Assembly: GCF_022836875.1 (NCBI RefSeq)
Contig: NZ_CP090376.1
Location: forward strand, 124,001-188,000
Origin: Flavobacterium enshiense
GTDB taxonomy: Bacteria; Bacteroidota; Bacteroidia; Flavobacteriales; Flavobacteriaceae
Reading direction: 5' to 3'
DNA: 64,000 bases
Position 1 is the stretch's first letter. The number at the start of each line of letters is the position of its first letter. Shown piece after piece: positions 6,648 through 27,802 of the stretch. Under the pieces are notes generated by a model that was given only the letters and a program-made list of their open reading frames with translations, searched no databases and was not told where the DNA came from. The translations under genes and the position numbers were made by a program.

Positions 6648-7894
6648 TGTATTTCAACAGCAAATTTTGGTTAAAAATCTCATTGATAAACTTACTTATC
6701 GTTGCCTCCGTAGGTCTCTTGATGCGATATAAAATAGGTTTTGAATTCCCCCACTTCGATCAAAAAAGCCTCCAGCATTCCCACTCGCATTTTGCCTTTG
6801 CCGGCTGGATAAGTCATACGCTGATTGTCTTGATGATTGCTTTTTTAGAAAAAAGGACCAGATATACTGATAAAGAGACACTCAGTTTCTCCAAATACAA
6901 TAAGATAATTGTCTCCAATTTACTTTGTTCCTATGGGATGCTGATATCCTTCATTTACCAGGGATACGGGCCAATTTCAATTTTCTTTTCCACTGCAACG
7001 ATACTTATTTTCTACATTTTCAGTTACCATTTCATCAAAGATTTAAGGCAAATAAATCCGGACAATCTTTCCAAAAAATGGTTCACCGCCGCTATATTTT
7101 TCAACATCATTTCTTCATTAGGAACTTTTGCTTTGGCCTATATGATGATGACAAAAAGCATCCAGCAGGACATGTATCTTGCATCTATTTATTACTATTT
7201 GCATTTTCAGTATAACGGATGGTTTTTCTTTGCCTGCATGGGATTATTTTATGATTTTATCGACATAAAAAAAGAAAACAATGCATTTTTCAACACCACA
7301 TTTTATTTGTTTTTCGTGGCGTGCATCCCGGCTTATTTTCTTTCGACACTTTGGATGAAACTGCCTCTAGGAGTTTACATAATTACAATTCTTTCGGCCC
7401 TTATCCAAGTATATGCTTGGTTCCGATTTCTGTCCATACTAGTAAAAACCAAACTTCATATACTAAAAAACAACCTGCCTGTTTTTCGTTGGATAATCCT
7501 TTTCATTGGATTTGCAACAAGCTTAAAGTTACTGCTCCAATTAGGATCGACAATCCCTTCCCTGAGTAAGCTGGCTTTTGGTTTCAGGCCAATTGTAATT
7601 GCCTATTTACACTTGGTCCTTCTTGCCATAATTTCATTATTCCTGTTGTTTTATATTTTCTCCAATAAATTCTTAGCTGTAAACAAAAAAATTATTCAAG
7701 GCGTGATTATTTTTTCAACAGGTGTATTATTAAATGAGACCGTGCTTGCCATTCAAGGTATTGCATCATTCAGCTACACTTTAATCCCTGGCATAAATGA
7801 AACCCTTTTCGGGGTCTCGATCATAATGGTTTTAGGAATCATCTTTATAATGGTTCATTCTTTACAAAAAGTCAAAAACGAGTCTGTTTTATGA
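6647..7894 (+). CDS. polytopic membrane protein with oxidase/NnrS-like histidine motifs
   Basis: A 415-residue protein with about 11-12 hydrophobic helices and no family I can name with certainty. Three helices carry conserved-looking histidines: HSHSHFAFAGWISH near residue 45, YYLHFQYNGWFFF near residue 185, and AYLHLVLLAIISL near residue 320. Similar His-in-helix patterns occur in subunit I of haem-copper oxidases and in the NnrS haem-copper proteins linked to NO tolerance. The helix number fits either group. It overlaps the Crp/Fnr gene by one base, and its last codons overlap an operator-like palindrome of the next gene. A role in NO handling or haem/copper signalling is an inference. Confidence 0.6.
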   Translation: MYFNSKFWLKISLINLLIVASVGLLMRYKIGFEFPHFDQKSLQHSHSHFAFAGWISHTLIVLMIAFLEKRTRYTDKETLSFSKYNKIIVSNLLCSYGMLISFIYQGYGPISIFFSTATILIFYIFSYHFIKDLRQINPDNLSKKWFTAAIFFNIISSLGTFALAYMMMTKSIQQDMYLASIYYYLHFQYNGWFFFACMGLFYDFIDIKKENNAFFNTTFYLFFVACIPAYFLSTLWMKLPLGVYIITILSALIQVYAWFRFLSILVKTKLHILKNNLPVFRWIILFIGFATSLKLLLQLGSTIPSLSKLAFGFRPIVIAYLHLVLLAIISLFLLFYIFSNKFLAVNKKIIQGVIIFSTGVLLNETVLAIQGIASFSYTLIPGINETLFGVSIIMVLGIIFIMVHSLQKVKNESVL

Positions 7895-7906
7895 TTACGC
7901 TCATAG
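7889..7906 (+). promoter_or_regulatory. Crp/Fnr-type operator (TTATGA-N6-TCATAG) before fasciclin gene
   Basis: The palindrome TTATGATTACGCTCATAG overlaps the stop codon of the upstream gene. Its centre lies 64.5 nt before the ATG at 7962 and exactly 29.5 nt before a -7-like TTACTTTA (7927-7934). That is the class II activator geometry shared with the other boxes in this island. Confidence 0.7.
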
Positions 7907-7961
7907 TAAAACAATCTAATAATCAGTTACTTTACAAGTACGAACCAAGTAATTTATTATT

Positions 7962-8513
7962 ATGAGAACAATCAAATTCTTTGTTTTAGCAGGTTTATTC
8001 ATGGCCATTGGGTGTAAAAAAACCGAAGAAGTCAAACCAGATGCTACTACTGAAGGCGCTACTACTGAAAGTGTCGGCCAATCCGGCGTAAAAGACGAAA
8101 CATCGGCGCCAAATATCGTACAAACAGCTGCCGGAAGTAAAGACTTCACAACTCTGGTTACAGCCGTAAAAGCAGCGGGCTTGGTAGATGCTCTGTCCAA
8201 CGCAGGTCCCTTTACCGTTTTTGCTCCGACAAATGCGGCTTTTGACAAACTTCCCAAGGGAACAGTGGAAGATTTGTTAAAACCGGAAAACAAAGACAAA
8301 TTAAAAGGTATTTTAGAATATCATACTTATGTAGGTTCTTTAAAAACAGACTATATGAGCGACGGACAGTCATTTGAAATGGTTTCGGGCGGCAAAGTAA
8401 ATATCACGAAACAAGGAGATAAAACTTTAGTAAACGGCTCCGAAATCACCACCTCCATTGAAACATCGAATGGGATCATACATGTAATTGGTGATGTTCT
8501 GAGTCAGAAATAG
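7962..8513 (+). CDS. fasciclin (FAS1) domain lipoprotein
   Basis: A 183-residue exported protein. A signal peptide ends in a lipobox (MAIGC, Cys at residue 18), followed by a low-complexity Thr/Glu/Ser linker and one FAS1 domain (residues about 50-182) with the typical H1 motif GPFTVFAPTNAAFDKLP and H2 region TSNGIIHVIGDVL. FAS1 domains usually mediate adhesion or protein contacts at the cell surface. Here it sits alone between the Crp/Fnr pair and norCB, with its own Crp/Fnr-type box. It therefore appears to be co-regulated with denitrification genes even though no enzymatic role is evident. Confidence 0.9.
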   Translation: MRTIKFFVLAGLFMAIGCKKTEEVKPDATTEGATTESVGQSGVKDETSAPNIVQTAAGSKDFTTLVTAVKAAGLVDALSNAGPFTVFAPTNAAFDKLPKGTVEDLLKPENKDKLKGILEYHTYVGSLKTDYMSDGQSFEMVSGGKVNITKQGDKTLVNGSEITTSIETSNGIIHVIGDVLSQK

Positions 8514-8545
8514 GTTATTATTAATTCGACCACTTCCACGGAAGC

Positions 8546-8583
8546 AAAAAAGCGTAAACAAAAAAGTGTTTACGCTTTTTTTG
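8546..8583 (+). terminator. intrinsic terminator after fasciclin gene
   Basis: AAAAAAGCGTAAACA pairs with TGTTTACGCTTTTTT around a short A-rich loop, giving a stem followed by a T-tract. It ends the fasciclin transcript just before the norC operator begins at 8581. Confidence 0.88.
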
Positions 8584-8598
8584 TGATTGCAATCATAA
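8581..8598 (+). promoter_or_regulatory. Crp/Fnr-type operator (TTGTGA-N6-TCATAA) before norC
   Basis: The palindrome TTGTGATTGCAATCATAA is centred 63.5 nt before the norC ATG and 29.5 nt before a -7-like TCAATTTG (8619-8626). It has one mismatch to the island consensus (G for A in the left arm). Confidence 0.75.
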
Positions 8599-8652
8599 GG
8601 TATTCATGGAATAATAATTCAATTTGTAATGTAATATTCAAATTGCTTTGCT

Positions 8653-9084
8653 ATGAAACACTACCAAAAATATTCCATCCTTTTACTGTGTCTCTTATCT
8701 GTTTTTCTTGTTTACAATTGTATTTTATACACTTCTGATTCGGATTTTGGCGAGGTGCATTTGTCAAAAAAAGCAATCGAAGGCGAAAATATATGGCTTA
8801 AAAACAACTGTAATTCCTGCCACCAAATTTATGGGCTTGGCGGATACCTCGGTCCGGATTTAACCAACGCCTACTCACGAATCTCCAACGAAGATTATCT
8901 CAAAGCCATGTTTAACAGTGGTGCGAAAGCTATGCCTAAATTTAATTTTAACGAGGAAGAACGGAATCAGTTGGCCCAATTCCTAAAAGAAATCGACCAA
9001 ACTGGTTTTTATCCTAATCTACAGGCGAACTCCAAAAACAATGGTTGGGTGACCATTAAATATAAAGATCAACATTATGAATAA
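8653..9084 (+). CDS. norC: NorC-type membrane-anchored cytochrome c
   Basis: A 143-residue protein with an N-terminal membrane anchor (residues about 8-27) and one c-type haem site, C53-N-S-C56-H57, followed by GLGGYLGPDLTN and a probable axial Met94 in KAMPKFNF. This is the layout of NorC, the electron-donating subunit of cytochrome c-dependent NO reductase. The ATG at 8653 is preceded by the Crp/Fnr-type box. The gene overlaps norB by 8 nt, so the two subunits are translationally coupled. Confidence 0.93.
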   Translation: MKHYQKYSILLLCLLSVFLVYNCILYTSDSDFGEVHLSKKAIEGENIWLKNNCNSCHQIYGLGGYLGPDLTNAYSRISNEDYLKAMFNSGAKAMPKFNFNEEERNQLAQFLKEIDQTGFYPNLQANSKNNGWVTIKYKDQHYE

Positions 9085-10408
9085 CACCAAAAAATACGCA
9101 TTCCTGTTTATCGGCACCGGACTAATTTCATTACTTCTCGGTTTGCTTTGCGGCCTACTGGCTGGATTTCAATACATCGTCCCGGATTTCATCAAAGAAA
9201 CATTACCTTTTAACTCGTTACGCCCATTACATACTTTGTTTGTCGTTTCCTGGATCCTGTTATCCTCACTGGGAGGAATTTACTATTACCTGAACCAAAA
9301 TCCGGAAATCAAATTTTTCAACCATCAGCTGGTTCAGTGGCATTTCTGGCTCTTTCTGCTAACTGGAATTGGAATTACAATTTCTTATATAACTCATAAT
9401 TTCGGTGGAAAAGAGTATCTTGAATTCCCAGCCTATTTTTATTTCCCAATTATTGTCGGATGGATTTTTTTAGGCATTAATTATTTCAAAACCATGCTTC
9501 CTAATTTCAAAACCTGGCCGGTGTACTACTGGATGTGGGGAACAGGAATAGTTTTTATGATCTTTCATTTCACCGAAGCGCATTTGTGGCTGCTTTCCTC
9601 TTTCAGGGATAATTTTCTCCGAAACTTTGCCATTCAGTGGAAAGCCGGAGGTTCCTATGTTGGTGCCTGGAATCAATTGGTATATGGAACCGCTTTGTTT
9701 GTAATGTCAAAAATCAGCAATGATGAAAGTTATGCCAAATCAAAAAAAGCTTTTTTCTTTTACTTTTTAGGATTAACCAATTTGATGTTTGGCTGGGCAC
9801 ATCACATTTACATAGTACCAACAAGTCCGTGGATCAGATATGTTGCCTACTCCATCAGCATGACCGAATGGATCATCCTATTCTCAATCATCTATGACTG
9901 GAAAAAAAATCTTGGTAAAGAAAAAAAGAAAGCCAATTTTATTGCCTACCAATTCATGATTTTAGCCGATTTCTGGGTGTTTTTAAATATTATCCTAGCC
10001 TTATTGATTTCCATACCGTCGATAAACCTTTTCACGCACGGAACACACATAACAGTGGCCCATTCTATGGGAACAACCATCGGGATAAACACACTTATAT
10101 TGTTTTCATCAATAACGTACATTCTTGAAAAAGAATTCATGTTTACCGCAACCGTACTTTTAAAAATAAAACAGGGAATCAAAATTTTCCATGTTTCTTT
10201 TATCTGTTTCTGGATTACTTTATTGGTTTTGGGAGTTAAAAAAGGGCATTGGACATATTTCAGCCAAAATATTTCTTTTGGAACATTTCAGAATTCAATG
10301 CATTGGATTTATGCCCTTTTCGTGCTGTTCGGATTCGGGTTACTTATGGGTTTATACCTCATCTCCTTTAAACTTCTGAATTTAATACGCGACAAATTCA
10401 GAACATGA
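9077..10408 (+). CDS. norB: NorB-like haem-copper reductase subunit I (divergent ligand set)
   Basis: A 443-residue protein with about 12 transmembrane helices, of the haem-copper oxidase superfamily. Candidate ligands are H52 (RPLHTLF, low-spin haem), H169 (EAHLWLL), H242-H243 (GWAHHIY) and H329 (ITVAHSMG). Pairing with NorC makes NO reduction (2 NO to N2O) the likely reaction. It departs from the textbook NorB. The canonical HLWVEG glutamate is replaced (HLWLLS, with a Glu at 167 instead), and the His expected two residues after H329 is Met331. It may therefore belong to a separate NO reductase lineage. The stop codon lies inside the operator of the next gene. Confidence 0.85.
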   Translation: MNNTKKYAFLFIGTGLISLLLGLLCGLLAGFQYIVPDFIKETLPFNSLRPLHTLFVVSWILLSSLGGIYYYLNQNPEIKFFNHQLVQWHFWLFLLTGIGITISYITHNFGGKEYLEFPAYFYFPIIVGWIFLGINYFKTMLPNFKTWPVYYWMWGTGIVFMIFHFTEAHLWLLSSFRDNFLRNFAIQWKAGGSYVGAWNQLVYGTALFVMSKISNDESYAKSKKAFFFYFLGLTNLMFGWAHHIYIVPTSPWIRYVAYSISMTEWIILFSIIYDWKKNLGKEKKKANFIAYQFMILADFWVFLNIILALLISIPSINLFTHGTHITVAHSMGTTIGINTLILFSSITYILEKEFMFTATVLLKIKQGIKIFHVSFICFWITLLVLGVKKGHWTYFSQNISFGTFQNSMHWIYALFVLFGFGLLMGLYLISFKLLNLIRDKFRT

Positions 10409-10420
10409 CTTTTATCAACT
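10403..10420 (+). promoter_or_regulatory. Crp/Fnr-type operator (weaker) before the 603-residue gene
   Basis: ACATGACTTTTATCAACT keeps the TGA-C-N4-A-TCA core of the island boxes but not the outer bases, and it overlaps the norB stop codon. Its centre is 60.5 nt before the ATG at 10472 and exactly 29.5 nt before a -7-like AATCTTTG (10441-10448). The exact spacing is the main support. Confidence 0.5.
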
Positions 10421-10471
10421 TTTAAGTGTTGATATTTTACAATCTTTGAAGCATTAAACAATTACAAACGA

Positions 10472-12283
10472 ATGAAAACAAAACAGTTACATACTTTTCA
10501 CATACCGGTAATGGGACTGTCCTACACCATTGACAGCCCTATCCGAGTGGCTCATTACGGCATTTCCTCAGTAATAGCTATTACCGATGATGAAATTCTC
10601 GAAAAATTAAGAGCTTTCTATTGTGATAAATTCAATATCCCTTATCTGGAAATAACACAAAAAACCATTGACTACAGGGCAAAAAGAATTACGGCCTATC
10701 TGAACATGGTTAATGATACAGTAAAAGAAAAGTTTCAGAACTTTAAAAGCGAGTTGCTCGAAAATAAAACGACTCTGGAAAATTTCATATCCCTTTTGCC
10801 CAATACTTCCGATTTAAAGATCAACCTGGAAAAGGTAATGAATGAAGGAAGTGCCATTAAGAAAAACATTCAAAATTTTCTTGAAGACTATTTCTCTCCC
10901 GGTAGTATTGATGTCAACATCATGACAAAAGTGGACAAGGACAATTATGAAAATGATGTCCAATTACCGGTTGAGTTCAATGATGCCCATGCCTCACTAA
11001 GAGGATTTGCACAGAGTGAACTGAATTCATCGGTTGTGTTTTCGGCCGGAATGAATCCAAGATTATTCAGCTACATTGAAAATTTCAAGGATTTCTTCCC
11101 GGATACGCACGGCAAACTGAAAAAGAAGATTATTCTAAAAGTCAGCGACTACCGTTCCGCTTTGATTCAGGGTAATTTCCTTGCTAAAAAAGGACTTTGG
11201 GTTTCCGAATACCGAATTGAATCGGGATTAAATTGCGGTGGTCATGCTTTTGCCACAGACGGTTTTTTAATGGGACCCATTTTGGAAGAATTCAAAGAGA
11301 AAAAAGATCAATTGATCCAATCGGCACATGAACTTTTGATCAAAGCATTAACACTGAAAGAGCTGTATGTACCAACAGAACCAATGGAGCTGAAAATCAC
11401 CGCTCAGGGAGGCATCGGAACTGCTGAAGAGCATGACTTTTTACTCGAACATTACAATCTGGATTCCGTTGGTTGGGGGTCGCCTTTTTTATTGGTTCCC
11501 GAAGCAACTTCTCTTGACAAAGAAACTAGAAATATATTGGCCAAAGCCAAAGAAGACGATTTTTATCTAAGCAATATTTCGCCATTGGGTGTCCCTTTTA
11601 ATTCCGTAAAGGGCGTATCCAATGATTTTTGGAAACAAAAAAGAATCGATCAGAATAAAGCCGGCAGCTCCTGCCCTAAAAGATTGTTGGCCTTAAACAA
11701 AGAATATGATCACAAAGGCCTTTGCACTGCCTCCAAAAAATTTCAGGATATCAAACTGGATGAGTTAAAAGCCTTTGAAAAAGATTTGCTGCCTTCAGAA
11801 ATTGATAAAAGAAAAAATGCTATTACTGAAAAATCATGTCTGTGCGTAGGTTTGGTAAATGCTGCCTATCTGGAAAACAATATCGAGATTAAAGGGCAAC
11901 AGCAGGGTGTTGTTATTTGCCCGGGGCCAAATCTGGCGTATTTTGACAAAGAAGTATCATTAGCCGAAATGGTTCGTCACATTTACGGAAACGGGAATAT
12001 CATTACTGATAAAAACCGTCCGCATGTATTTGTGAAAGAATTAAAAATGTATGTGGAATACCTAAAAAAAGAGATCAATGACTTTTCCGGAGAAATAACA
12101 GCGGGCCAGACAAAAAAATGGAATTCGTTTAAAACCAATCTTCTGGCAGGAATCGATTATTATCAAAATCTTTTTTCGTCGACGAAATACTTTAAGTCTG
12201 TCCAGCAGGATGTTCAGCAACAGTTGACACAATACAGGAAAGAGCTGGCTCAAATAGAAGTTTTCACTTTAGAAATGGCTTAA
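10472..12283 (+). CDS. uncharacterised 603-residue Cys-containing protein, denitrification-linked
   Basis: A large soluble protein with no signal peptide or membrane segment. I do not recognise a named family. The middle (residues about 240-380) resembles a flavin-type TIM-barrel region: GLNCGGHAFATDG, ITAQGGIGTAEEHDFLL and VGWGSPFLLVPEAT are reminiscent of nitronate monooxygenase-like folds. The C-terminal half carries cysteines at 401, 418, 456, 458 and 483 (SSCPKR, GLCTAS, KSCLCVGL, VICPGP) that could hold an Fe-S cluster. The last 80 residues look helical. It follows norCB with a weak Crp/Fnr-type box at the standard distance, so a redox function in the NO response is plausible but inferred. 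Confidence 0.6.
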   Translation: MKTKQLHTFHIPVMGLSYTIDSPIRVAHYGISSVIAITDDEILEKLRAFYCDKFNIPYLEITQKTIDYRAKRITAYLNMVNDTVKEKFQNFKSELLENKTTLENFISLLPNTSDLKINLEKVMNEGSAIKKNIQNFLEDYFSPGSIDVNIMTKVDKDNYENDVQLPVEFNDAHASLRGFAQSELNSSVVFSAGMNPRLFSYIENFKDFFPDTHGKLKKKIILKVSDYRSALIQGNFLAKKGLWVSEYRIESGLNCGGHAFATDGFLMGPILEEFKEKKDQLIQSAHELLIKALTLKELYVPTEPMELKITAQGGIGTAEEHDFLLEHYNLDSVGWGSPFLLVPEATSLDKETRNILAKAKEDDFYLSNISPLGVPFNSVKGVSNDFWKQKRIDQNKAGSSCPKRLLALNKEYDHKGLCTASKKFQDIKLDELKAFEKDLLPSEIDKRKNAITEKSCLCVGLVNAAYLENNIEIKGQQQGVVICPGPNLAYFDKEVSLAEMVRHIYGNGNIITDKNRPHVFVKELKMYVEYLKKEINDFSGEITAGQTKKWNSFKTNLLAGIDYYQNLFSSTKYFKSVQQDVQQQLTQYRKELAQIEVFTLEMA

Positions 12284-12297
12284 AAAACCATTTAAAA

Positions 12298-12396
12298 TCA
12301 CCTGAAAACGAATCGGATATTTGGTAAAGAAAGCAATTCTGAGGGCTTTATCGCCTGGGAAGAAAACAACTTCCCAGGCGTTTCTTTTCTATAATC
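12298..12396 (-). pseudogene. decayed fragment of the nrdG 3' end
   Basis: Read on the minus strand, this stretch encodes KETPGKLFSSQAIKPSEL followed by LSLPNIRFVFR and a stop. It matches the last 31 residues of the intact NrdG at 14249-14926 (KETLGKLSSSYAIKPAEL, DSLPNIQFVLR) at about 22 positions, with no upstream reading frame. It is therefore a remnant of an old nrdG copy or of a duplication that now flanks the delta-60-repeat gene. It has been reshaped into a terminator (12352-12390). The rest of the 309-nt gap (12397-12592) shows nothing recognisable. Confidence 0.8.
12352..12390 (+). terminator. intrinsic terminator built from the nrdG remnant
   Basis: CGCCTGGGAAG pairs perfectly over 11 bp with CTTCCCAGGCG around a 7-nt loop, followed by TTTCTTTTCT. 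It ends the 603-residue gene. The same positions in intact nrdG (about 14310-14340) form only an imperfect 8/11 stem. Confidence 0.85.
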
Positions 12397-14248: not shown

Positions 14249-14926
14249 TTACCTCAAAACAAATTGAATATTTGGTAAAGAATCTAATTCTGCCGGCTTT
14301 ATCGCATAGGAAGAAGAAAGCTTTCCAAGCGTTTCTTTATCATTTCTAAATCCCTGGACATAAAAATTTCCCTCATATCCTTTACTATCCAAATAGTGAA
14401 TCATTTTATTTAAATCGACAGATGCCAGCAAGTCGGAATGACAAGTTGTTCTTACTTCAAAGGCTACTTTTGAATTCAGCAGCAACTGCAGCGACTGTTC
14501 AAAAGGAGAAAACAGATCCGACACAGTAATCATTTGATATTTATCATCCAAAGCTTTAAAATCGAGCGCAACATAATCAATAAGATTCTCTTCTACAAGC
14601 TGCCTTAAAATTTTTGGACTGGAACCGTTGGTATCTATTTTAATCAGATAGCCCATGTTTTTAATTACTTTAATCTGTTCCTGAATGTTCTTATGAATCA
14701 AACATTCACCTCCGCTAAAAACAACAGCATCCAGCAATCCTCTTCTGGTATCTAAAAAAGAAATTGCTTCAGAAAAGAGAACTCGTCCCTTTCCTAAAAC
14801 AATTTCGGGGTTATAACAATATAAACATCTCATATTACAGCCCGCATACCAAAATATGCAAGCTGATTTACCGGGATAATCCAACAGCGTAAACGGAGTA
14901 ATATCAGAAATAGGTTTGCTTAACAT
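14249..14926 (-). CDS. nrdG: anaerobic ribonucleotide reductase activating protein (radical SAM)
   Basis: A 225-residue radical SAM enzyme with the CX3CX2C cluster motif in AGCNMRCLYCYNPE near residue 30, plus the glycine-rich SAM site FSGGECLIHKN. It resembles the larger NrdG type that also matches pyruvate-formate-lyase activases. It generates the glycyl radical on the anaerobic ribonucleotide reductase. Its start overlaps the end of the small glycyl-radical gene by 7 nt, so activase and substrate subunit are made together as the end of the ric-nrdD operon. Confidence 0.92.
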   Translation of the reverse strand: MLSKPISDITPFTLLDYPGKSACIFWYAGCNMRCLYCYNPEIVLGKGRVLFSEAISFLDTRRGLLDAVVFSGGECLIHKNIQEQIKVIKNMGYLIKIDTNGSSPKILRQLVEENLIDYVALDFKALDDKYQMITVSDLFSPFEQSLQLLLNSKVAFEVRTTCHSDLLASVDLNKMIHYLDSKGYEGNFYVQGFRNDKETLGKLSSSYAIKPAELDSLPNIQFVLR

Positions 14927-15084
14927 CCACCTTCTTTAAAATACGTGCGCTGTTTATGTTCACCTTTTTTTCCGATATTAAAACTTTCTACGGGACGGTG
15001 ATACCCCATTACACGCGTATAAACCAGGCATTTCGTCCTTAAACCCTGATTCTCCTCTAAAATTTGGTCGGTTTTAGTTTTCAT
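14920..15084 (-). CDS. separate glycyl-radical subunit of anaerobic ribonucleotide reductase
   Basis: A 54-residue protein from the ATG at 15084, 7 nt after the nrdD stop. It contains YTRVMGYHRPVESFNIGKK, which matches the C-terminal glycyl-radical loop of NrdD (RVxGY), with Gly27 as the predicted radical site. NrdD normally carries this loop at its own C terminus, but the large gene here ends just after its zinc-binding cysteines. The enzyme is therefore encoded in two parts. The reading frame differs from nrdD. An in-frame TTG at 15108 overlaps the end of nrdD, so ribosomal frameshifting is an alternative to a separate start. Confidence 0.8.
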   Translation of the reverse strand: MKTKTDQILEENQGLRTKCLVYTRVMGYHRPVESFNIGKKGEHKQRTYFKEGGC

Positions 15085-15091
15085 AGTTATT

Positions 15092-17182: not shown

Positions 17183-17210
17183 TTTTTAGGCTTTTTATGT
17201 TATACAGGGG

Positions 17211-17936: not shown

Positions 17937-17988
17937 AATATTTCTTTTTAATGTTTATACAATATTACATTGATAAGCAAGCCTGATT

Positions 17989-18006
17989 ATATGACTTAAA
18001 TCATAT
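17989..18006. promoter_or_regulatory. shared Crp/Fnr-type operator between ric and nadA
   Basis: The perfect palindrome ATATGACTTAAATCATAT lies in the divergent ric-nadA region. Toward nadA its centre is 29.5 nt before GTACTTTG (18027-18034). Toward ric it is 30.5 nt before TAATATTG (17967-17960). Both match the spacing of the other boxes, so one site can serve both promoters. Confidence 0.75.
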
Positions 18007-18052
18007 GCAAAAACTTTTAACCTCGCGTACTTTGTACTTTATTACAAACAAT

Positions 18053-18982
18053 ATGAACGCATTACAGAATCAAATAATCGAACTGAAAAAGAAAAAAAAC
18101 GCCGTCCTGTTGGCTCATTATTATCAGCGTCCGGAAATTCAGGAAATAGCCGATTATGTTGGAGACAGTCTTGGGTTATCGCAGGAAGCCAAAAAAACAG
18201 ATGCAGATATTATCTTATTTGCCGGCGTACATTTTATGGCCGAAACCGCCAAAATCTTAAACCCATCAAAAAGGGTATTGCTTCCCGATTTAGAAGCCGG
18301 TTGTTCTTTAGCCGAATCCTGTCCTCCATCTGATTTTGAAAAATTCATACAGGCGCATCCGGATCACCTTGTCATTACTTATGTCAACTGTTCCGCTGAG
18401 ATTAAAGCTTTGAGTGATGTTGTCTGTACTTCTTCCAACGCTGAAAAAATAGTACGATCTGTCCCTGAAGACACTCCGATAATTTTTGCTCCGGATAAAA
18501 ATCTCGGCAGGCACATCATCCAAAAAACAGGCAGAAACATGGTTTTGTGGGATGGCTCCTGTGTGGTACACGAAGCTTTTTCCTTAGACAAATTAATCGC
18601 CCTATACAAAGAACATCCAGATGCCGAAATCATTGCACATCCCGAATCGGAATCCCATATACTGAAAACAGCAAATTTCATAGGCTCGACCGCCGAAATG
18701 ATAAAATATGTAGGAGAAAGTCCGAATGATAAATTCATCATTGCCACCGAAGCCGGAATTTTACATAAAATGCAGCAGGAAGTACCTCAAAAAACGCTTA
18801 TACCTGCCCCAACAAATGAAAACAACACTTGTGCTTGCAGCGAATGCGGTTTTATGAAAATGAATACCCTGCAAAAGGTATATGATTGCCTGCTAAACGA
18901 AACCCCTGAGATCGAACTACCGGAAAAACTAATAGAGAAAGCGTTAGTTCCCATTGAACGAATGTTAGAATTATCAAGATAA
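18053..18982 (+). CDS. nadA: quinolinate synthase NadA
   Basis: A 309-residue Fe-S enzyme from the ATG at 18053. An upstream in-frame ATG at 18005 is rejected because the promoter -7 element lies between the two. It condenses iminoaspartate and dihydroxyacetone phosphate to quinolinate in NAD synthesis. Family motifs are [45 protein letters not shown] and the C-terminal cluster cysteines in [13 protein letters not shown]. Its stop codon shares a base with the nadB start (TAATG). The 4Fe-4S cluster is NO- and oxygen-sensitive, which may explain the shared operator with the repair gene ric. Confidence 0.95.
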
Positions 18983-20535
18983 TGACACAGACCAATTACT
19001 TAGTCATCGGTTCGGGAATTGCCGGATTGACATTTGCTTTAAAAATTGCCGATCGTTTCCCCAACAGATCCGTGACCATTGTGACCAAATCGAATGCAGA
19101 TGAAAGCAATACAAAATATGCTCAGGGCGGAATTGCTGTGGTTATTGACAAAGTAGCCGACAATTTTAAAAAACACATTGAGGATACCCTAATCTGCGGT
19201 GATGGATTGTGTGATCAAAAAGTTGTTGAAATGGTAGTCACCGATGGTCCGAAAAGACTAAAGGAATTAATCAGTTGGGGAGCCAAATTTGACCTGAATG
19301 AACAAGGAAACTTAGATTTAGGAAGGGAAGGCGGACATTCCACAAACAGGGTGGTTCATCATAAAGATCAAACGGGTTATGAAATTGAAAGAGCCATTTT
19401 AGCGAAAGTGTATAAAACTAAAAATATACAGATTCTGGATTACCATTTTGCTTTCGAATTGATTACCAAAAATAACCGTTGTTTTGGTGCTTATGCCTTA
19501 AACGAAAAAACGAATGAGATAATCCCTTTATTATCCGATTACACTTTATTGGCAACAGGCGGAATCGGGCAGATCTATGGCCATACCACAAATCCCGCAA
19601 TAGCTACGGGCGATGGAATTGCAATGGCAAAAAGAGCAAATGCCAAAATTACCGACATGGAGTTTATCCAGTTTCATCCAACGGCTTTGTATAATGAAAA
19701 CCTGAGTTCTACCTTTTTAATTTCGGAAGCCGTAAGGGGATTTGGTGGCATTCTCAGAACCAAAGACGGCATTCCCTTTATGTCAGATTATGATGCCAGG
19801 GGTGATTTGGCTTCCAGGGATATTGTCTCGCAAAGCATAGAAAACGAATTAAAAAAATCGGGGGATGATTGTGTGTATCTTGATTGTACGCATCTTGAGA
19901 TAAATGCTTTTATCAAACATTTCCCTATGATTTACAGTCGATGCAAAGAGGCCGGAATTGATATTGAAAAGAACTGGATTCCGGTGGTTCCGGCACAACA
20001 TTATCTGTGCGGAGGAATTTCCGTTGATCTGAACGGACAAACATCCTTAGAAAATTTATTTGCCTGTGGCGAATGCTCTCGAACAGGTTTGCACGGCGCC
20101 AATCGACTGGCATCTAACTCGCTTTTAGAAGCCATTGTTTATTCAGACAGAATATATAAATATCTGGAAAAAGTCAGCACAACAGATAGCGGCACAACTT
20201 ACTTCCCCGGAAAAAAGAAAAATAACGATAAAAAATTGGATCAATTCTATCTTTCCAATATTAAGAACGAATTGCAAAATACAATGCGTAAAAACGCAGG
20301 TATCACCAGAAACGATACCGATTTGGAAAAAACCAAAAACAAACTGGAAAAGTGGCGATTAGAATTATTAAAGTTGGAAAACCAAATTCTGGTTACTAAA
20401 GAATTCTACGAATTAAAAAACATGATAACGGTTAGTTTACTGATAGTGACGCAATCTATGTCGAGAAAAGAAAATCGTGGCGGGTTTATTAAATTTGATA
20501 CTTTACAGACCTCCTATTCTCACCAGACTCCCTAA
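18982..20535 (+). CDS. nadB: L-aspartate oxidase NadB
   Basis: A 517-residue FAD protein: the dinucleotide-binding motif GSGIAGLTFALKI at the N terminus, NTKYAQGGIAV, GREGGHSTNRVVHHKDQTG, FIQFHPTAL, HYLCGGISVD and GLHGANRLASNS, followed by a C-terminal helical domain. It oxidises aspartate to iminoaspartate for NadA and can use fumarate when oxygen is absent, so NAD synthesis continues anaerobically. It overlaps nadA by one base. Its last 33 nt overlap the convergent CopD-like gene, and the C terminus (ENRGGFIKFDTLQ) deviates from the usual SRGLHYxxDYP ending. Confidence 0.95.
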   Translation: MTQTNYLVIGSGIAGLTFALKIADRFPNRSVTIVTKSNADESNTKYAQGGIAVVIDKVADNFKKHIEDTLICGDGLCDQKVVEMVVTDGPKRLKELISWGAKFDLNEQGNLDLGREGGHSTNRVVHHKDQTGYEIERAILAKVYKTKNIQILDYHFAFELITKNNRCFGAYALNEKTNEIIPLLSDYTLLATGGIGQIYGHTTNPAIATGDGIAMAKRANAKITDMEFIQFHPTALYNENLSSTFLISEAVRGFGGILRTKDGIPFMSDYDARGDLASRDIVSQSIENELKKSGDDCVYLDCTHLEINAFIKHFPMIYSRCKEAGIDIEKNWIPVVPAQHYLCGGISVDLNGQTSLENLFACGECSRTGLHGANRLASNSLLEAIVYSDRIYKYLEKVSTTDSGTTYFPGKKKNNDKKLDQFYLSNIKNELQNTMRKNAGITRNDTDLEKTKNKLEKWRLELLKLENQILVTKEFYELKNMITVSLLIVTQSMSRKENRGGFIKFDTLQTSYSHQTP

Positions 20536-22103: not shown

Positions 22104-22809
22104 GCTGCTTTTTCTTTAATATTTTGGCTATGGCTTTTGATATCTTATCTACCTGAATCTCTTCCTTCAGGTCAGCTACTTTTTTATGGAAACAGACTTC
22201 GCCTTCCTGAACAAAAATGATTTCCGTAATCAGTTCATCCAATTCACTTAACAAATGGGAGGTAATCAGAATCAGTTTCCCTTTTTCTTTTTCCCTGATA
22301 ATTTTCTCTTTTAAAATTTCAGAAGCAAGCGGATCAAGACCTGCAGTAGGTTCATCCAATATCAAAACATCGGGATTAAATAAAAAAGCCAAAACAGCAC
22401 TTACTTTTTGAGTAGTTCCGCCGGAAAGAGTCCGCATTTTTTTATCAAACATTTTCTCTAATTCGAAACTTTTCATCAATTCATCATCGATGTCGGCATC
22501 ATGGTTTCGAATCTGTTTAATCATGTCCACGATCTGTCCGATAGTCATATTATCAGGATATCTTCCAATCTGAGGCATATAACCAATTTTTTCCCTATAG
22601 CGGTAATCCCCAAAAACAGACTTTCCTTCAAATTCGATTTCGCCACTGTCCGGCAAAACCATTCCGAGAATCGACTTAATCAGTGTGGTTTTTCCGCAGC
22701 CATTAGGGCCAACCAAGGCAATACATTCACCTTTTTGAAAGGATAAGGAAACGTTTTTCAGCACCTCTAATTTCCCGAATTTTTTATAGCAATTTTTAAT
22801 TTCGATCAT
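22087..22809 (-). CDS. nosF: NosF, ABC transporter ATPase
   Basis: A 240-residue ABC ATPase with Walker A GPNGCGKTT, Q-loop region IGYMPQIGRYP, signature LSGGTTQK, Walker B VLILDEPTAGLD and the H-loop ITSHLLSE. The IGYMPQ and TAGLDP features are typical of NosF. It powers NosY in the NosDFY complex. It overlaps nosD by 4 nt upstream and nosY by 17 nt downstream. Confidence 0.94.
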   Translation of the reverse strand: MIEIKNCYKKFGKLEVLKNVSLSFQKGECIALVGPNGCGKTTLIKSILGMVLPDSGEIEFEGKSVFGDYRYREKIGYMPQIGRYPDNMTIGQIVDMIKQIRNHDADIDDELMKSFELEKMFDKKMRTLSGGTTQKVSAVLAFLFNPDVLILDEPTAGLDPLASEILKEKIIREKEKGKLILITSHLLSELDELITEIIFVQEGEVCFHKKVADLKEEIQVDKISKAIAKILKKKQHEKVD

Positions 22810-24041
22810 AGTGGTAAGGAATGCATTAGTGGGGTTTTATCAACAAAATTCTCGGGCGTTATACTGGGAAGGACCTTCTCTGATTTGTCTAAAAGCGTTA
22901 TCATAAAACTTCTGAACAGTAACATAGCGGATGGCGTATTCTCGGTAAGAACTGCAAACAAACTCAGTGGATGATAAGGAACATCTCCGACATTATCCCT
23001 ATTAAGATCGTACCCCTCATATTTATCCCAATAATTACTGTTAAAGGTATTGAGCACCAAGCTGCCATTAGTACTGATATCAAAGGTATTCCCCAAAAAA
23101 TTGTTTTGAGTAATTACATTGTCCATGCAACTAGCCTGAATTTTCATCCCCCAACCATTTGCGCTGAACACGTTCTTTTCAACTTTAATTCTCGAAGTCC
23201 CTTCCATATAAATCCCTGAAGTATTCTTGCTGAATGTATTTTTAAAAATATAGCTGTCTGATATTTCCTTGAGTAATAATCCGTAGGCCGAATCGCCCCA
23301 GTTTTGTTCAAAATGATTATTAATCATCTTTACGTTCTTGGTAAACATTACGGCTACTCCTGCCCCGTTACCTTTAAAAACATTGCCGACATACGAATCA
23401 TCATTTGAAAACATGAAATGCAGGCCATAACGAATGTTGTTATTTGAAATATTCTTTTGGATTAAGGACTCGGTGACAAATTCAAAATAAATTCCGTCGC
23501 GGTGCCCCATTATTTTATTCCCGATTATTTTCAGATTATTGCTTTTCCAGCAGTGGATTCCGTTTCCGATAAGCTGTTCGCCTTTTCCGTAGGCCCGGAG
23601 ATTATTGTTTCTTATAATGCAGTTCGTAGAATTCTGCAGATAAATCCCAAAGAAATTATTGTCAAGGATATTATTCTCGATAACCACATTTTTTTGGTCA
23701 TACACTTTAATTCCACAAGGATCTTCAAGCGATGCATGACCGGAATTTATAATTTTAAATCCTTTGACCGTAACATAATCAGCATTAACCGATAAAACTT
23801 CAACCTTGTGTTTTCCGTCAAGGATCGGATAATTTTTTCCAATGAAGGTGACTTTTTTATCTATTCGGATATTTCCTTCACTGTAATACCCACCATCTAC
23901 AATGATAGTATCGCCATCTGAGGCTATTTCCAACGCTTTTTTAATTTTTTTAATAGCTGAATTTTTCCCAACGGTAATCACTTTGGCATTACCCAAACAG
24001 ATAAAACCGATCAAGAATAGAATCGATAACAGTTTTTTCAT
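22806..24041 (-). CDS. nosD: NosD, periplasmic copper-delivery beta-helix protein
   Basis: A 411-residue protein with a signal peptide (MKKLLSILFLIGFICLGNA) and a long series of about 22-residue NN/DN repeats (VIENNILDNNFFGIYLQNS, IRNNNL, NNIRYGLHFMFSND) that form a right-handed parallel beta-helix of the CASH/NosD type. NosD accepts copper from NosL and works with NosFY to build the CuZ site of NosZ. It overlaps nosL and nosF by 4 nt each, so the maturation genes are one translational unit. Confidence 0.94.
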   Translation of the reverse strand: MKKLLSILFLIGFICLGNAKVITVGKNSAIKKIKKALEIASDGDTIIVDGGYYSEGNIRIDKKVTFIGKNYPILDGKHKVEVLSVNADYVTVKGFKIINSGHASLEDPCGIKVYDQKNVVIENNILDNNFFGIYLQNSTNCIIRNNNLRAYGKGEQLIGNGIHCWKSNNLKIIGNKIMGHRDGIYFEFVTESLIQKNISNNNIRYGLHFMFSNDDSYVGNVFKGNGAGVAVMFTKNVKMINNHFEQNWGDSAYGLLLKEISDSYIFKNTFSKNTSGIYMEGTSRIKVEKNVFSANGWGMKIQASCMDNVITQNNFLGNTFDISTNGSLVLNTFNSNYWDKYEGYDLNRDNVGDVPYHPLSLFAVLTENTPSAMLLFRSFMITLLDKSEKVLPSITPENFVDKTPLMHSLPL

Positions 24042-24466
24042 TTGATAGACGAATATACCTCGCTCCAGGTCATTGATACAGCATTGTACTTTTGCTGAAA
24101 TTCATTTTGTTCTTTGCTGTTAGTAAAGGCTGCAAAATTACCCCCCATAGGTGATTTAATAATTCCGCCTTTGACGTAAAAACATTTCTCTGCAGGAATC
24201 AGTTTATTTTCTTTTGTATAATCTCCAACATAGTGCGACTTGTAAGGAACAGTTGTGTTTGTCTTGGCATAGGAAATCATACATAGCAAATCATCAAACT
24301 TATAGACCCTTCCTTTTTGTGTAATTAATTCGGCGCCAAATTTCCCGTTTGAAATTGTCATTTTACAAAAATCACAATGATCGGAATTCAGTTTTATCTC
24401 TTCCGGCCCATTACTCCCGCAAGCCGATAACAATAAAGCCATGACAAAAAACAAGTACTTCCCCAT
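24038..24466 (-). CDS. nosL: NosL, copper chaperone lipoprotein
   Basis: A 142-residue lipoprotein (lipobox LLSAC) with the NosL motif HCDFCKMTISNGKFGAELIT and later VYKFDDLLCMI and GGNFAAFTNSKE. NosL binds Cu(I) through the conserved Cys/Met residues and hands it to NosD. It is separated by 1 nt from the upstream membrane protein and overlaps nosD by 4 nt. Confidence 0.94.
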   Translation of the reverse strand: MGKYLFFVMALLLSACGSNGPEEIKLNSDHCDFCKMTISNGKFGAELITQKGRVYKFDDLLCMISYAKTNTTVPYKSHYVGDYTKENKLIPAEKCFYVKGGIIKSPMGGNFAAFTNSKEQNEFQQKYNAVSMTWSEVYSSIK

Positions 24467-24467
24467 C

Positions 24468-25046
24468 TTATTTCCTGAATTTAAATTCTTTTAATACAAT
24501 CATAATTAACAGTAAAGCAGAACCCCCAAGCATCCACCCTCCGGTATCAGGAATCGAATATGCCGCAAAATTCAACAATTGTTTATATCCCAATAAGGGT
24601 GGCTGATAGGCCATTCCTGGCACTTTGATGGCTGCATTAGGATCCAAATTATGACCATATTCATAGTTCCACCGATAAAAATCGGCAGCTGAAATAATAA
24701 TAAAAAGCATGTACGTTATAAAAAATCCAAGTACCGCTTTTCGTTTGGCAATAAATATTAAAACGAATGATACAAGGGCAAAAGCTCCGAAAATATATGG
24801 CAAAACTGAAAATTCGAAAAAGTTTTCGGTATGTAGTGTTGCCATTCCGATATAATGGTTTAACCCATTGATAACATCCACATCCCCTCCTATTTTGTTT
24901 GGATACAGTTGCAGTACTAATCCTTCGGGATATTGGGGAGCATCGAGCTCAATTCTCCATAATGGCACAAACAAAGATCCTGCAAATAAAGCTGCAACCA
25001 TTAAAAGCAACACTTTTGACGAATTAGAAATTTTTGTTGTTTCCAT
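24468..25046 (-). CDS. membrane protein of the nos operon (possible NosB)
   Basis: A 192-residue protein with about five hydrophobic helices. The first periplasmic-type loop contains PLWRIELDAPQYPEGLVLQL and HYIGMATLHTENF. A second loop carries FYRWNYEYGHNLDPNAAIKV. The His and Met residues in the loops are suggestive of copper contacts. Proteins of this kind are found next to nosZ in clade II nos clusters and are sometimes called NosB. It lies between nosZ and nosL, separated from nosZ by the inverted-repeat element. Its exact role is unknown. Confidence 0.75.
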   Translation of the reverse strand: METTKISNSSKVLLLMVAALFAGSLFVPLWRIELDAPQYPEGLVLQLYPNKIGGDVDVINGLNHYIGMATLHTENFFEFSVLPYIFGAFALVSFVLIFIAKRKAVLGFFITYMLFIIISAADFYRWNYEYGHNLDPNAAIKVPGMAYQPPLLGYKQLLNFAAYSIPDTGGWMLGGSALLLIMIVLKEFKFRK

Positions 25047-25058
25047 ACTATAAAAAAA

Positions 25059-25173
25059 AGAAACTGTCCAAAAATTACAACATTGTCATTTTGAAATTTC
25101 CTTAAATCGGCATTCAAATTAAACCTGTTGTTTTTCTGCTTGAAAAGAGAAAATAAATTTTGGACAGTTTCTT
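25059..25173. repeat. 115-bp element bounded by 19-bp inverted repeats (terminator or MITE remnant)
   Basis: AAGAAACTGTCCAAAAATT at 25059-25077 pairs with AAATTTTGGACAGTTTCTT at 25155-25173 (18 of 19 positions) around a 77-nt AT-rich interior. On the minus strand the second arm is followed by a run of eight T, so it could act as a partial terminator after nosZ. The ACTGTCCAAAA-type ends also resemble inverted repeats of IS elements, so a miniature transposable element is an alternative. No clear target-site duplication is visible. Confidence 0.6.
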
Positions 25174-25186
25174 ATGTTAGGTTATT

Positions 25187-27160
25187 TTAAATTTTTGGCT
25201 GGTTAGTACCGACGCTCCATGTGAGCGGCACACTGCTTCCTGCAGGTGATACGCGTACATATCCTGACATTTCCTGGTGCAGGGCACTACAGAAATCCGT
25301 ACAATACATTGGGAAAATTCCAACTCTGTCCGGCACCCACTTCAATGTAGTGGTTTCTCCCGGCATGATTAACAATTCCGCATTGTTGGCTCCTTTAATA
25401 GAAAATCCGTGAGGCACATCCCAATCCTGTTCAAGATTGGTAATATGGAAATATACTTCGTCACCCATTTTAATTCCTTCGATGTTATCAGGAGCAAAGT
25501 GAGAACGGATAGAAGTCATATAAACATGAACCTTATTCCCCTGCCGTACAACTTTTGCCTCTTTTTCTCCTTTTGCCGCAAAAGGATGGTTATTCTCTGC
25601 AATCTTATAGAATTTATACTGACCATTATTTCTAATTAAATCTGCAGGCGCAGCTTGTGCATAATGAGGTTCACCGATAGTTGGAAAATCCAAGATAAGC
25701 CGCATTTTATCTCCGCTGATATCATAAATCTGAGCCGATTGTGCCAGCTCCGGTCCGGTTGGCAAATATCGGTCTTTAGTGATTTTGTTATAGGCTATCA
25801 TGTATTTTCCAAATGGTTTTTTAGAATCGCCGCCTGGAACACATAAGTGTCCAACAGAGTAATAGGTAGGTACCCTGTCTAAAACTTTTAATGATTTGAT
25901 ATCCCATTTTACAACTTCAGAAGAAACAAACATAGAGGTATATGCATTTCCTTTTGCATCAAATTCTGTGTGTAATGGTCCTAAACCTGGTTTTTTAACT
26001 TCCCCATGCAATGCTGCTTCATATTTTACAACCGAAATACCGCTATAATCTCCGTCAAATTGCTTATTGGTAATTGCCGATTGCAATTTATCAAAACTGA
26101 AAACCGGTATCAAAGCAGCTAATTTTCCTGATCCTACTATGTATTCCCCTGTAGGATCAACATCACATCCGTGAGGGGATTTTGGACAAGGAATCATATA
26201 ACAGATATCTTTTAAGGCAGTCGCATCAAGCACAAGAACTTCATTTTTCGTTTCAGAAGTTGCAGTATGAGTTTTTTCATCCCATTTGTTATGTACATAT
26301 TTTACAGATTGCTTTTTAGCTTTACCGGCTTTGACATATTCCTCAGCTTTTTTCCAATTTACTGCCATGATAAAATCCTTATCCTTTTGAGAAGCGTTCA
26401 CTTCCAATAAAGTATTGGCTTGTTCCGTATTATAACAAGAGAAAAACATCCATCCGTGTGATTTTCCTTTTCCGGCATGTGATAAGTCAAAATTCACCCC
26501 TGGGGTAACAATTTGAAAAGCCAAATCCATTTCTCCTTCTTTACCAACTTTTACAAAACTGATATGTCCTTTAAAATTTTGTTTATAGGTATTTATAGGC
26601 ACATCACCGTCGACATAATCACCGGGAACACTAAAACGGGTACCGGCTACCACATACTCAGTATTTTCAGTAATAAAAGGTGAAGAATGATTCCCGCCAA
26701 CATTTGGTAACTCAATTATTTCAGCAGTTTTAAATGTTTTAAGATCAACGCGGGCAATACGAGGAGTATTGTTAGCATTTGCAAAAACCCAACGTCCGTC
26801 AACTTCGCCATTTGTCTGTGACATTTCTGTATGGTGTAAATCATCCCAAGGTACAAATCCGTGGGAGGTATTTAACATCGGTTTCGTTTCTTCGCTATAT
26901 CCCCATCCTTTTTCAGGATCAACGGAAAACACAGGTATTACCCTGAATAATCTTCCACTCGGCAAACCGTAAACACTAAGCTGTCCGCTAAATCCACCGG
27001 AAACAAAGTTGTAAAACTCATCGTACTTCCCTGGCGCAACATACGCTTTTTGAGCTGCATCACCACTCACTGCGTCCCCTGAATCTTTAGGTTTACAGGA
27101 AGTAAAAAGCATACTCCCTACTGCAATCACAAAGATTGACTGTATAAATTTATTTTTCAT
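25187..27160 (-). CDS. nosZ: nitrous oxide reductase NosZ, clade II lipoprotein type
   Basis: A 657-residue copper enzyme that reduces N2O to N2. The CuZ histidines are visible in DDLHHTEMS, GGNHSSPF, PKSPHGCDVDPTG, LGPLHTEFD, YSVGHLCVPGG and IGEPHYAQ. The C-terminal cupredoxin domain has the CuA motif YCTDFCSALHQEMSGYV. The signal peptide ends in a lipobox (LFTSC, Cys22) with no twin-arginine motif. Export is therefore Sec-dependent with lipid anchoring, typical of clade II enzymes in Bacteroidota. It follows a cytochrome c lipoprotein that may deliver electrons. The length and all ligand motifs look intact. Confidence 0.97.
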   Translation of the reverse strand: MKNKFIQSIFVIAVGSMLFTSCKPKDSGDAVSGDAAQKAYVAPGKYDEFYNFVSGGFSGQLSVYGLPSGRLFRVIPVFSVDPEKGWGYSEETKPMLNTSHGFVPWDDLHHTEMSQTNGEVDGRWVFANANNTPRIARVDLKTFKTAEIIELPNVGGNHSSPFITENTEYVVAGTRFSVPGDYVDGDVPINTYKQNFKGHISFVKVGKEGEMDLAFQIVTPGVNFDLSHAGKGKSHGWMFFSCYNTEQANTLLEVNASQKDKDFIMAVNWKKAEEYVKAGKAKKQSVKYVHNKWDEKTHTATSETKNEVLVLDATALKDICYMIPCPKSPHGCDVDPTGEYIVGSGKLAALIPVFSFDKLQSAITNKQFDGDYSGISVVKYEAALHGEVKKPGLGPLHTEFDAKGNAYTSMFVSSEVVKWDIKSLKVLDRVPTYYSVGHLCVPGGDSKKPFGKYMIAYNKITKDRYLPTGPELAQSAQIYDISGDKMRLILDFPTIGEPHYAQAAPADLIRNNGQYKFYKIAENNHPFAAKGEKEAKVVRQGNKVHVYMTSIRSHFAPDNIEGIKMGDEVYFHITNLEQDWDVPHGFSIKGANNAELLIMPGETTTLKWVPDRVGIFPMYCTDFCSALHQEMSGYVRVSPAGSSVPLTWSVGTNQPKI

Positions 27161-27180
27161 AGTGATTTGAATTAAAAAAA

Positions 27181-27213
27181 GAAAATCGCAGCGCTTATCC
27201 CAATGCGATTTTC
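27181..27213 (-). terminator. hairpin between cytochrome c and nosZ (attenuator)
   Basis: AAAATCGCA pairs with TGCGATTTT around a 13-nt loop. On the transcribed (minus) strand it is followed by CTTTTTTT. It may partly terminate or stabilise the cytochrome c transcript ahead of nosZ, which has no separate operator of its own. Confidence 0.65.
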
Positions 27214-27221
27214 ATATTGTT

Positions 27222-27731
27222 TTATTTTACTCCGTCGTTTTTTCTCATGTATTCAAGAATATTTCTTGCTTCAGCATCACTAAGTCCTTGATTTGGCATA
27301 CGGACCAAACAAATTTCTAATTGTGCCTGAACCGCAGGGTCTTTATCAATCATAGGGTCCGGATTCGTGATAAAATTCATGATCCATTCAGGTTTACGAC
27401 GAGTAGTCACATCTTTCCATCCCGGGCCAACGAGTTTTTCGTCGGTAAGTTTATGACATGAGGTACATTTTACTCCTGCTGCTTTTTCTCCTTCAGTAGC
27501 CATAGCCTGATCCAGTTTTGCTCCCAGATCTACTTTATCATATTTACCTTCCCCTCGATGAGGATCATATTTTTCAGCATCGGTTGCAGCCGAAGATGTT
27601 TCAGTTGAAGATGGCTCAGATGAAGGTGTTTCCGTTGTAGGTTTTGAAAAATCATCCCCTGAACTTTCTTTTTTCCCACAAGAGACGAATAATAAAATTG
27701 TTAGTGCAAAAATTGATGATAATCTTTTCAT
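27222..27731 (-). CDS. c-type cytochrome lipoprotein, first gene of the nos operon
   Basis: A 169-residue protein with a lipobox (LFVSC), a Ser/Thr/Glu-rich linker (residues about 20-55) and a single-haem cytochrome c domain: CTSCHKLTDEKLVGPGWKDV, then axial Met in CLVRMPNQGLSDAEARNIL. It probably passes electrons to NosZ at the outer face of a membrane, since both proteins are lipid-anchored. The ATG is 62.5 nt from the centre of the Crp/Fnr-type box at 27785. Confidence 0.9.
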   Translation of the reverse strand: MKRLSSIFALTILLFVSCGKKESSGDDFSKPTTETPSSEPSSTETSSAATDAEKYDPHRGEGKYDKVDLGAKLDQAMATEGEKAAGVKCTSCHKLTDEKLVGPGWKDVTTRRKPEWIMNFITNPDPMIDKDPAVQAQLEICLVRMPNQGLSDAEARNILEYMRKNDGVK

Positions 27732-27784
27732 GATAATACGATTTAAGATGTTAAGACGAATTTACTTATATCTCCAATTTTATT

Positions 27785-27802
27785 TTATGACCGTAATCAT
27801 AA
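27785..27802 (-). promoter_or_regulatory. Crp/Fnr-type operator (TTATGA-N6-TCATAA) before the nos operon
   Basis: The palindrome TTATGACCGTAATCATAA has two perfect 6-bp arms. On the minus strand its centre is 29.5 nt before a -7-like TAAATTCG (27764-27757) and 62.5 nt before the cytochrome c start. It is the best match to the island consensus. Confidence 0.8.

Follow-up and report, generated by a model that had tools for sequence, protein, structure and literature searches.

The DNA considered here is a window of 64,000 nucleotides (nt) from Flavobacterium enshiense (positions 124,001 to 188,000 of contig NZ_CP090376.1), in which a short palindrome, TGAY-N4-RTCA, precedes genes of denitrification, Fe-S repair, anaerobic deoxyribonucleotide synthesis and NAD synthesis. 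We consider it quite probable that these palindromes (boxes) are class II sites of an FNR/DNR-like anaerobic regulon acting on Bacteroidota promoters, with two kinds of reader, an FNR-type protein and a pair of Crp/Fnr-type proteins that have a VETVIR helix. One member of this pair is encoded on the plus strand at 6057..6647 (196 residues, with the helix GLRVETVIR and without a conserved cysteine; hereafter the 6057 protein). On the same strand follow a fasciclin-domain gene (7962..8513; PF02469), a second norC/norB-like pair encoding a cytochrome c and a COX1-family protein (8653..10408), the gene for a 603-residue protein of no named family (10472..12283), and nadA with nadB (18053..20535), the start of nadA being set at 18053 because the longer open reading frame matches the family only from about residue 17 on. 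The minus strand carries ric, nrdD and nrdG, for Fe-S repair and the anaerobic ribonucleotide reductase (14249..17936), and a gene run containing a cytochrome c gene, a Sec-dependent nosZ and nosD (22806..27731).

Boxes and their distance from the promoter element

A preliminary description of this DNA had listed five palindromes, starting at 7889 and onward, and all of them are present; in the window motif scan their TGA lies three bases after the starts given there, at 7892, 8584, 10406, 17992 and (plus strand) 27788. A further box that the description lacked, TGATTTATATCA (5950..5961, plus strand), stands 5' of the regulator gene itself, and its -7 element TAAATTTG (5985..5992, plus strand) matches all six fixed bases of TAnnTTTG, which makes this the strongest box-element match in the window. 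Elements are scored over these six bases, and spacing runs from the box centre to the first base of the element, the 29.5 nt seen here being equivalent to a gap of 23 nt between box and element. The same spacing, with elements matching at 5/6, separates TGATTGCAATCA (8584..8595) from TCAATTTG (8619..8626) before the second norC and TGACTTTTATCA (10406..10417) from AATCTTTG (10441..10448) before the 603-residue gene, all on the plus strand, and TGATTACGGTCA (27788..27799, minus-strand reading) from TAAATTCG (27757..27764, minus strand) before the cytochrome c-nosZ run. The box TGACTTAAATCA (17992..18003) is common to ric and nadA, between which it lies; the ric element TAATATTG (17960..17967, minus strand) scores 5/6 at 30.5 nt, and the nadA element GTACTTTG (18027..18034, plus strand) 4/6 at 29.5 nt, tied with matches at 20.5, 30.5 and 37.5 nt. 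The fasciclin gene has an imperfect box, TGATTACGCTCA (7892..7903, plus strand), which does carry the C at the R position that had been described and overlaps the stop codon of the gene at 6647; its element TTACTTTA (7927..7934, plus strand) scores 4/6, with 29.5 and 30.5 nt tied. At 4/6 with ties, the fasciclin and nadA elements are too weak to serve as independent evidence of spacing. Thus, of the fixed spacing formerly ascribed to six units, four cases are solid: the second norC, the 603-residue gene and nos at 29.5 nt, and ric at 30.5 nt.

The dyad TGAY/RTCA flanking four bases is present at the tested boxes, imperfectly at that of the fasciclin gene. Its outer bases set it apart from both FNR/DNR and CRP sites: across 231 boxes of eight orthologue groups, the base preceding TGA is T, as in FNR/DNR sites, in none, and G, as in the TGTGA of CRP-type sites, in two, both at the second norC. 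TTGAY-N4-RTCAA has no match in the window. The preceding base is mostly A, with C frequent at the 603-residue and nadA genes; the boxes are usually flanked outside by A or C, and the commonest form is TATGAY-N4-RTCATA.

The TAnnTTTG element is that of primary-sigma promoters of F. psychrophilum, where, according to the main text of Guerin et al. (PMC9723704), it occupies -12 to -5 of mapped transcription starts. An element so placed, combined with a gap of 23, puts the box centre at -41.5, which is class II geometry, as had been proposed. Activation from this position would be a case of class II control on promoters of the TAnnTTTG type.

Chance, conservation and the extent of the regulon

The 3.25-Mb genome contains 288 bare cores and 113 matches to the reversed pattern; since most of these genomic cores are background, we dropped core density as evidence, and only spacing and conservation discriminate. 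In the window, a scan at gaps 22-24 yields five pairs having no more than one mismatch and the nadA pair with two, and every one precedes a gene. Four cores lie wholly within the 6,207 intergenic nt of the window against 0.21 expected, a number that 0 of 1000 first-order simulations reached. The preliminary description had named a genome scan as a check, and the scan reveals the preference for spacing: of 22 exact box and TAnnTTTG pairs at the 27 allowed gaps (10-36), nine have gap 23 (binomial P ~4e-8), three have gap 22 and one has gap 24, the other 24 gaps having nine together (~0.4 each); the reversed pattern gives five pairs in all. Eight relatives, those with complete lists among the 39 searched along with the own genome, have gap 23 in 42 of 132 pairs (P ~1e-27), gap 24 in 17 and gap 22 in six, one match from G039 and 17 from G007 being excluded; taken singly, two of the eight, G034 (1/10) and G022 (3/17, a genome with repeated sequence), have little or no gap-23 peak. 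At the fixed gap of 23, 150 genomes of the genus hold 920 exact pairs, compared with 24 pairs of the reversed control, an excess nearer 15-fold than 38-fold because the reversed core is itself ~2.5-fold rarer. Among 198 genomes of the phylum, 84 have a match, with the highest counts in the own family and order and lower ones in other families of the class; outside the class, gap-23 counts are mostly 0 or 1, with exceptions up to six.

The boxes are likewise conserved upstream of orthologues, which upholds the earlier assignment of denitrification, Fe-S repair, anaerobic deoxyribonucleotide synthesis and NAD synthesis genes to them. For the 603-residue, regulator, ric, nadA and second norC genes, the search took an exact core within 260 nt upstream of the orthologue and counted the own genome among the loci. 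The 603-residue gene has the core in 77 of 80 upstreams, and in 74 of the 77 no other gap has a better element than gap 23, which scores at least 5/6. The box precedes nos at all 30 loci available from the 34 nosZ genomes (gap 23 in 23, gap 24 in seven), and 39 of 49 regulator (6057-type) loci have the core, 36 of them with an element at gap 23 or 24. It is also present upstream of ric (13/14), nadA (15/20, with gap 23 in eight), the second norC (5/7) and the norCBQD operon (23/24), where a gap-23 element of at least 5/6 is found in 16 and one of 4/6 in three. At the fasciclin gene, the exact core occurs in 1 of 21 upstreams, from which the box had seemed unconserved; this was overturned once one mismatch was allowed, which gave a box in 18 of 21, 14 of them having the C seen here, three its mirror image and one the exact core; the element reaches 5/6 in only two. 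As a control we took the other genes of the 80 loci around the 603-residue gene that are preceded by 60 nt or more of intergenic DNA; a box lies before 17 of these 576, and a box with gap 23 before two of 576, both times in front of a gene resembling, by eye, the hemerythrin-PAS gene at window position 2413.

Elsewhere in the genome, among the matches listed when gaps of 22-24 and up to one mismatch were allowed, boxes lie before nirK (genome 116631) and norC of norCBQD (121715, 2.3 kb ahead of the window start), in the divergent region of a fixI-like gene and fnr (1970161), and before the cbb3 cluster (1972655; ccoN starts 240 nt on), hemN (1985119), the flavohemoglobin gene hmp (2060754) and feoB (860031; 309 nt on). 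Others precede a ResB-like gene (2907635), a Fer2/flavin reductase gene (768732), an HlyD-like gene (2646044), a thioredoxin-reductase-like gene (1076711; identity below the family cut-off) and some further genes. Several one-mismatch matches inside genes look like chance.

Candidate readers and the box variant

In the scheme that we favor, a Crp/Fnr dimer on TGAY-N4-RTCA at -41.5 would, at a TAnnTTTG promoter, contact RNA polymerase that carries the primary sigma factor of Bacteroidota, and a fall in O2 or the presence of N-oxides would switch on respiratory, NO-detoxifying, haem and iron, and oxygen-independent biosynthetic genes. The first kind of reader would be an FNR-type protein (genome 1969449-1970126) that occurs across the genus and has conserved cysteines. 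The second would be the cysteine-poor VETVIR pair: the 6057 protein, which is linked to the nos cluster, and a paralogue encoded at genome 417638, behind whose gene, in relatives, come a box of its own and a gene for a small membrane protein. These three are, by inspection, the ones with Glu..Arg in the recognition helix among six cyclic nucleotide monophosphate-binding domain matches in the genome: RVETVIR in the 6057 protein, bearing out the Glu/Arg pair formerly noted there, RVETVIR again in the paralogue (42% identity) and TATESCIR in the FNR-type protein. The 6057 protein has the Crp/Fnr fold and the equivalents of Glu181 and Arg185 and lacks the FNR cysteine motif, a cysteine column being present in at most 9 of 28 orthologues. 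Eleven NCBIfam models of curated Crp/Fnr-type families match it, none at its cut-off, and its matches to solved structures are generic Crp/Fnr and cyclic-nucleotide-binding ones, the DNR structure 3dkw reaching only E 6.6e-7. At E 1e-40, 133 of the 150 genus genomes have the FNR-type protein (two with an internal stop). Of the 30 best-scoring loci 29 could be read, and all 29 orthologues keep the same six cysteines in their N-terminal and central parts. Aligned to an FNR structure, three of its cysteines fall on what we take to be the ligands Cys20, Cys23 and Cys122, and another invariant cysteine lies further on.

The regulon targets are respiratory, NO, haem and anaerobic genes, a set that argues against a carbon-sensing assignment for the Flavobacterium regulon, and the position that we take, from CRP numbering, to be Arg180 is in the alignment Val in the 6057 protein and Thr in the FNR-type protein. 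On both counts it is hardly credible that the sites are CRP/MalR-like carbon-responsive boxes, even though a carbon-sensing CRP/FNR homologue (MalR) has been predicted in a Flavobacteriales metagenome-assembled genome, with no control of denitrification evident in the account given there (PMC8510549).

The preliminary description had the 6057 protein as the one reader of all boxes and hence a single regulon. The protein is encoded inside the cluster, has the Glu/Arg helix, stands behind the window's best box at its own promoter and co-occurs with nosZ; yet its absence leaves the boxes in place. Taking as orthologues those proteins with at least 52% identity (34 genomes including the own one, one partial) and as the paralogue the lower matches at E 1e-20, including the 37-42% matches on the nosZ contig of G020, G073 and G091 that may be divergent orthologues, the 6057 orthologue is missing from 12 of 24 norB genomes, and the norC box is retained in 11 of these 12. 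The paralogue is present in five of the 12; the remaining seven have neither protein, and six of these retain the norC box, three with a good gap-23 element. The 603-residue gene has its box at 77 of 80 loci, and a 6057 match was found, within at most 10 kb on each side, at only 19 of the 80. Mean numbers of gap-23 promoters per genome are 2.1 without an FNR match (n=17), 5.5 with the FNR-type protein and neither VETVIR protein (n=62) and 8.7 with the 6057 protein (n=34), counts uncorrected for size or completeness, the 17 including many small or incomplete genomes. As the norC box and the gap-23 promoters persist without the 6057 protein, the box does not depend on it, and with two more proteins bearing the same Glu..Arg pair in the own genome, one with an identical VETVIR helix, we regard it as very improbable that the 6057 protein reads all boxes alone.

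The FNR-type protein is the likelier general reader, judging from these distributions, and the 6057 protein looks like a nos-linked specialist. Its orthologue occurs in 34 of 150 genomes and nosZ in 34, both together in 28 (Fisher 7e-19). A role as nor regulator was considered and set aside as weaker than the nos link, since the orthologue is present in 12 of 24 norB genomes and in only 1 of 13 that have norB without nosZ. It is conceivable that the FNR-type protein is the sole reader and that the 6057 protein and its paralogue bind other DNA or act downstream under FNR control with separate targets. The presence of the FNR-type protein in most genomes and of the box geometry in the 62 genomes without any VETVIR protein speaks for this; the Glu..Arg pair common to the VETVIR and FNR-type helices, and a variant of the box at the nos, fasciclin and regulator promoters that follows the 6057 protein, make it unlikely.

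This variant concerns the base after the half-site, which is T at nos (30/30), A at fnr/fixI (28/28) and at the 603-residue gene (77/78), and mixed elsewhere, with T at 27 of 39 regulator, 18 of 23 norC, 7 of 13 ric and 6 of 15 nadA boxes. The 6057 orthologue tracks a box variant near TTATGATTGYAATCATAA: places per genome matching the variant TATGATTNYANTCATA average 2.12 in genomes with the 6057 protein (found in 31/34), 0.86 in those with the paralogue only (22/37) and 0.25 in those with neither (14/79), a class that includes the nosZ-bearing fragmented assemblies G059 and G063, in which the regulator is possibly unassembled. The reversed control of TATGATTNYANTCATA gives 8, 17 and 16 matches in the three classes, by which the excess is clear for the 6057 genomes, slight for the paralogue-only ones and absent in the rest. 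Of 19 variant loci inspected, eight consist of the paralogue gene, the box, a perfect gap-24 element and the gene for a protein of ~95 residues; two lie before hmp-like genes, and several are without a good element. In the own genome, 417638-418600 holds the VETVIR paralogue gene, then a box, then a gene for 95 residues without a Pfam family. These patterns suggest that VETVIR proteins read the T..A variant. We tentatively go a step further and envisage a two-layer code, which may well prove wrong, in which the base adjoining the half-site would pick the reader, TGAYA-nn-TRTCA being assigned to the FNR-type protein and TGATT-nn-AATCA to VETVIR proteins, and the 6057 protein would be a dedicated activator of N2O reduction apart from NO reduction. 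If so, it would be a type of regulator undescribed in Bacteroidota N2O reducers, as far as the literature was searched.

Several observations weigh against a two-reader anaerobic regulon or parts of it. On the side of the VETVIR proteins, the variant in paralogue-only genomes is less than 2-fold over its reversed control (32 places versus 17), its exact form TATGATTNYANTCATA has no match in the window's own genome, and because it occurs mostly at nos, fasciclin and regulator promoters, gene content alone could yield its co-occurrence with the 6057 protein. We had also tried to separate the readers by the inner bases of all listed gap-23 boxes, and this gave a trend only (T..A in 6/43, 5/60 and 3/47). 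On the side of the FNR-type protein, Ser stands at the third FNR ligand position, an Fe-S cluster in it being a guess, and some genomes without an FNR match have several gap-23 promoters (G019 five, G084 six, G146 six). As to the promoters, only 7 of 13 ric boxes have an element of at least 5/6, and of 24 norC upstreams one is without a box and four have a box and no good gap-23 element. Finally, genomes within a single genus are not independent of one another, and the loci may include certain species twice.

Known systems and neighboring genes

Among the carriers of clade II nosZ, the Bacteroidota are an important group. A search of titles and abstract beginnings found no paper describing an FNR/DNR box in Flavobacterium, and the defined box, its spacing and three candidate readers would make O2 and N-oxide control of N2O reduction in this group directly testable. 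A comparable network is that of Dinoroseobacter shibae, an alphaproteobacterium. There, as described in PMC5398030 for the FnrL/DnrD-DnrE-DnrF network, an O2-sensing FNR and Dnr regulators use one Fnr/Dnr site serving nirS and nosR2, much as one box would serve ric and nadA here, and the regulon similarly includes cbb3, haem and denitrification genes. The present system differs in its TAnnTTTG promoters, TATGAY-like half-sites, ric-nrdDG and nadAB targets and the Ser at the third ligand. The sharing of one site by O2-type and Dnr-type regulators, like the service of two operons by a single site, is already known from that organism.

The DNR/NnrR regulons of Rodionov et al. 2005 (PMC1274295), the source of the 180/181/185 rule, in which specificity correlates with positions 180 and 181, resemble the present case in having Crp/Fnr proteins without the FNR cysteine motif and denitrification targets. 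Flavobacter, Cytophaga and Polaribacter do not occur in the main text of that paper, and the entries it gives for Bacteroides are HcpR2, whose common motif GTAAC-N4-GTTAC is unlike TGAY-N4-RTCA. HcpR of Porphyromonas and Bacteroides (PMC12750200, PMC1274295) likewise belongs to the Crp/Fnr family and controls the response of Bacteroidota to N-oxides, but these accounts give it other motifs and, in most of those genomes, hcp as the sole predicted target. In Nitrosophilus labii, Crp/Fnr genes adjoin denitrification clusters too, and exact boxes begin 48-49 nt before the predicted start of three units; the box described there is TTGA-N6-TCAA, and a negative effect on nosZ was inferred by correlation and path analysis (PMC11539149). 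For F. psychrophilum, cbb3 oxidase and haem synthesis genes are reported to rise under oxygen limitation, in a main text that has 0 occurrences of Fnr or Crp (PMC9723704).

Among the targets in the window, the 603-residue protein has 7,999 scored homologues, the named ones of which are called "hypothetical protein," and many invariant residues; against Pfam and NCBIfam no family reaches its cut-off. Its predicted model has a mean predicted local distance difference test score (pLDDT) of 61, and the best folds are 4z38 (enoyl reductase; E 8.8e-4, template-modeling [TM] score 0.26 by query) and 5lsm (nitronate monooxygenase; E 5.8e-3, TM 0.18), both presumably TIM barrels. We considered naming the protein nitronate monooxygenase or enoyl reductase from this fold and rejected both, the similarity of the predicted model being too weak. 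The NorB-like protein of the second pair shares only 22% identity with the NorB encoded in norCBQD (genome 122291) and has matches in 7 of the searched loci. Window positions 1-4971 hold the cut norCBQD operon, with norQ-like and norD-like genes, a hemerythrin-PAS gene and an oxidase-subunit-III-like gene, as well as a gene that, judged by eye, is carbonic-anhydrase-like. Between this operon and the 6057 gene, and divergent from the latter, lies the gene for an Rrf2-family regulator (5189-5623), which might add further control in the intergenic region that the two regulator genes have in common.

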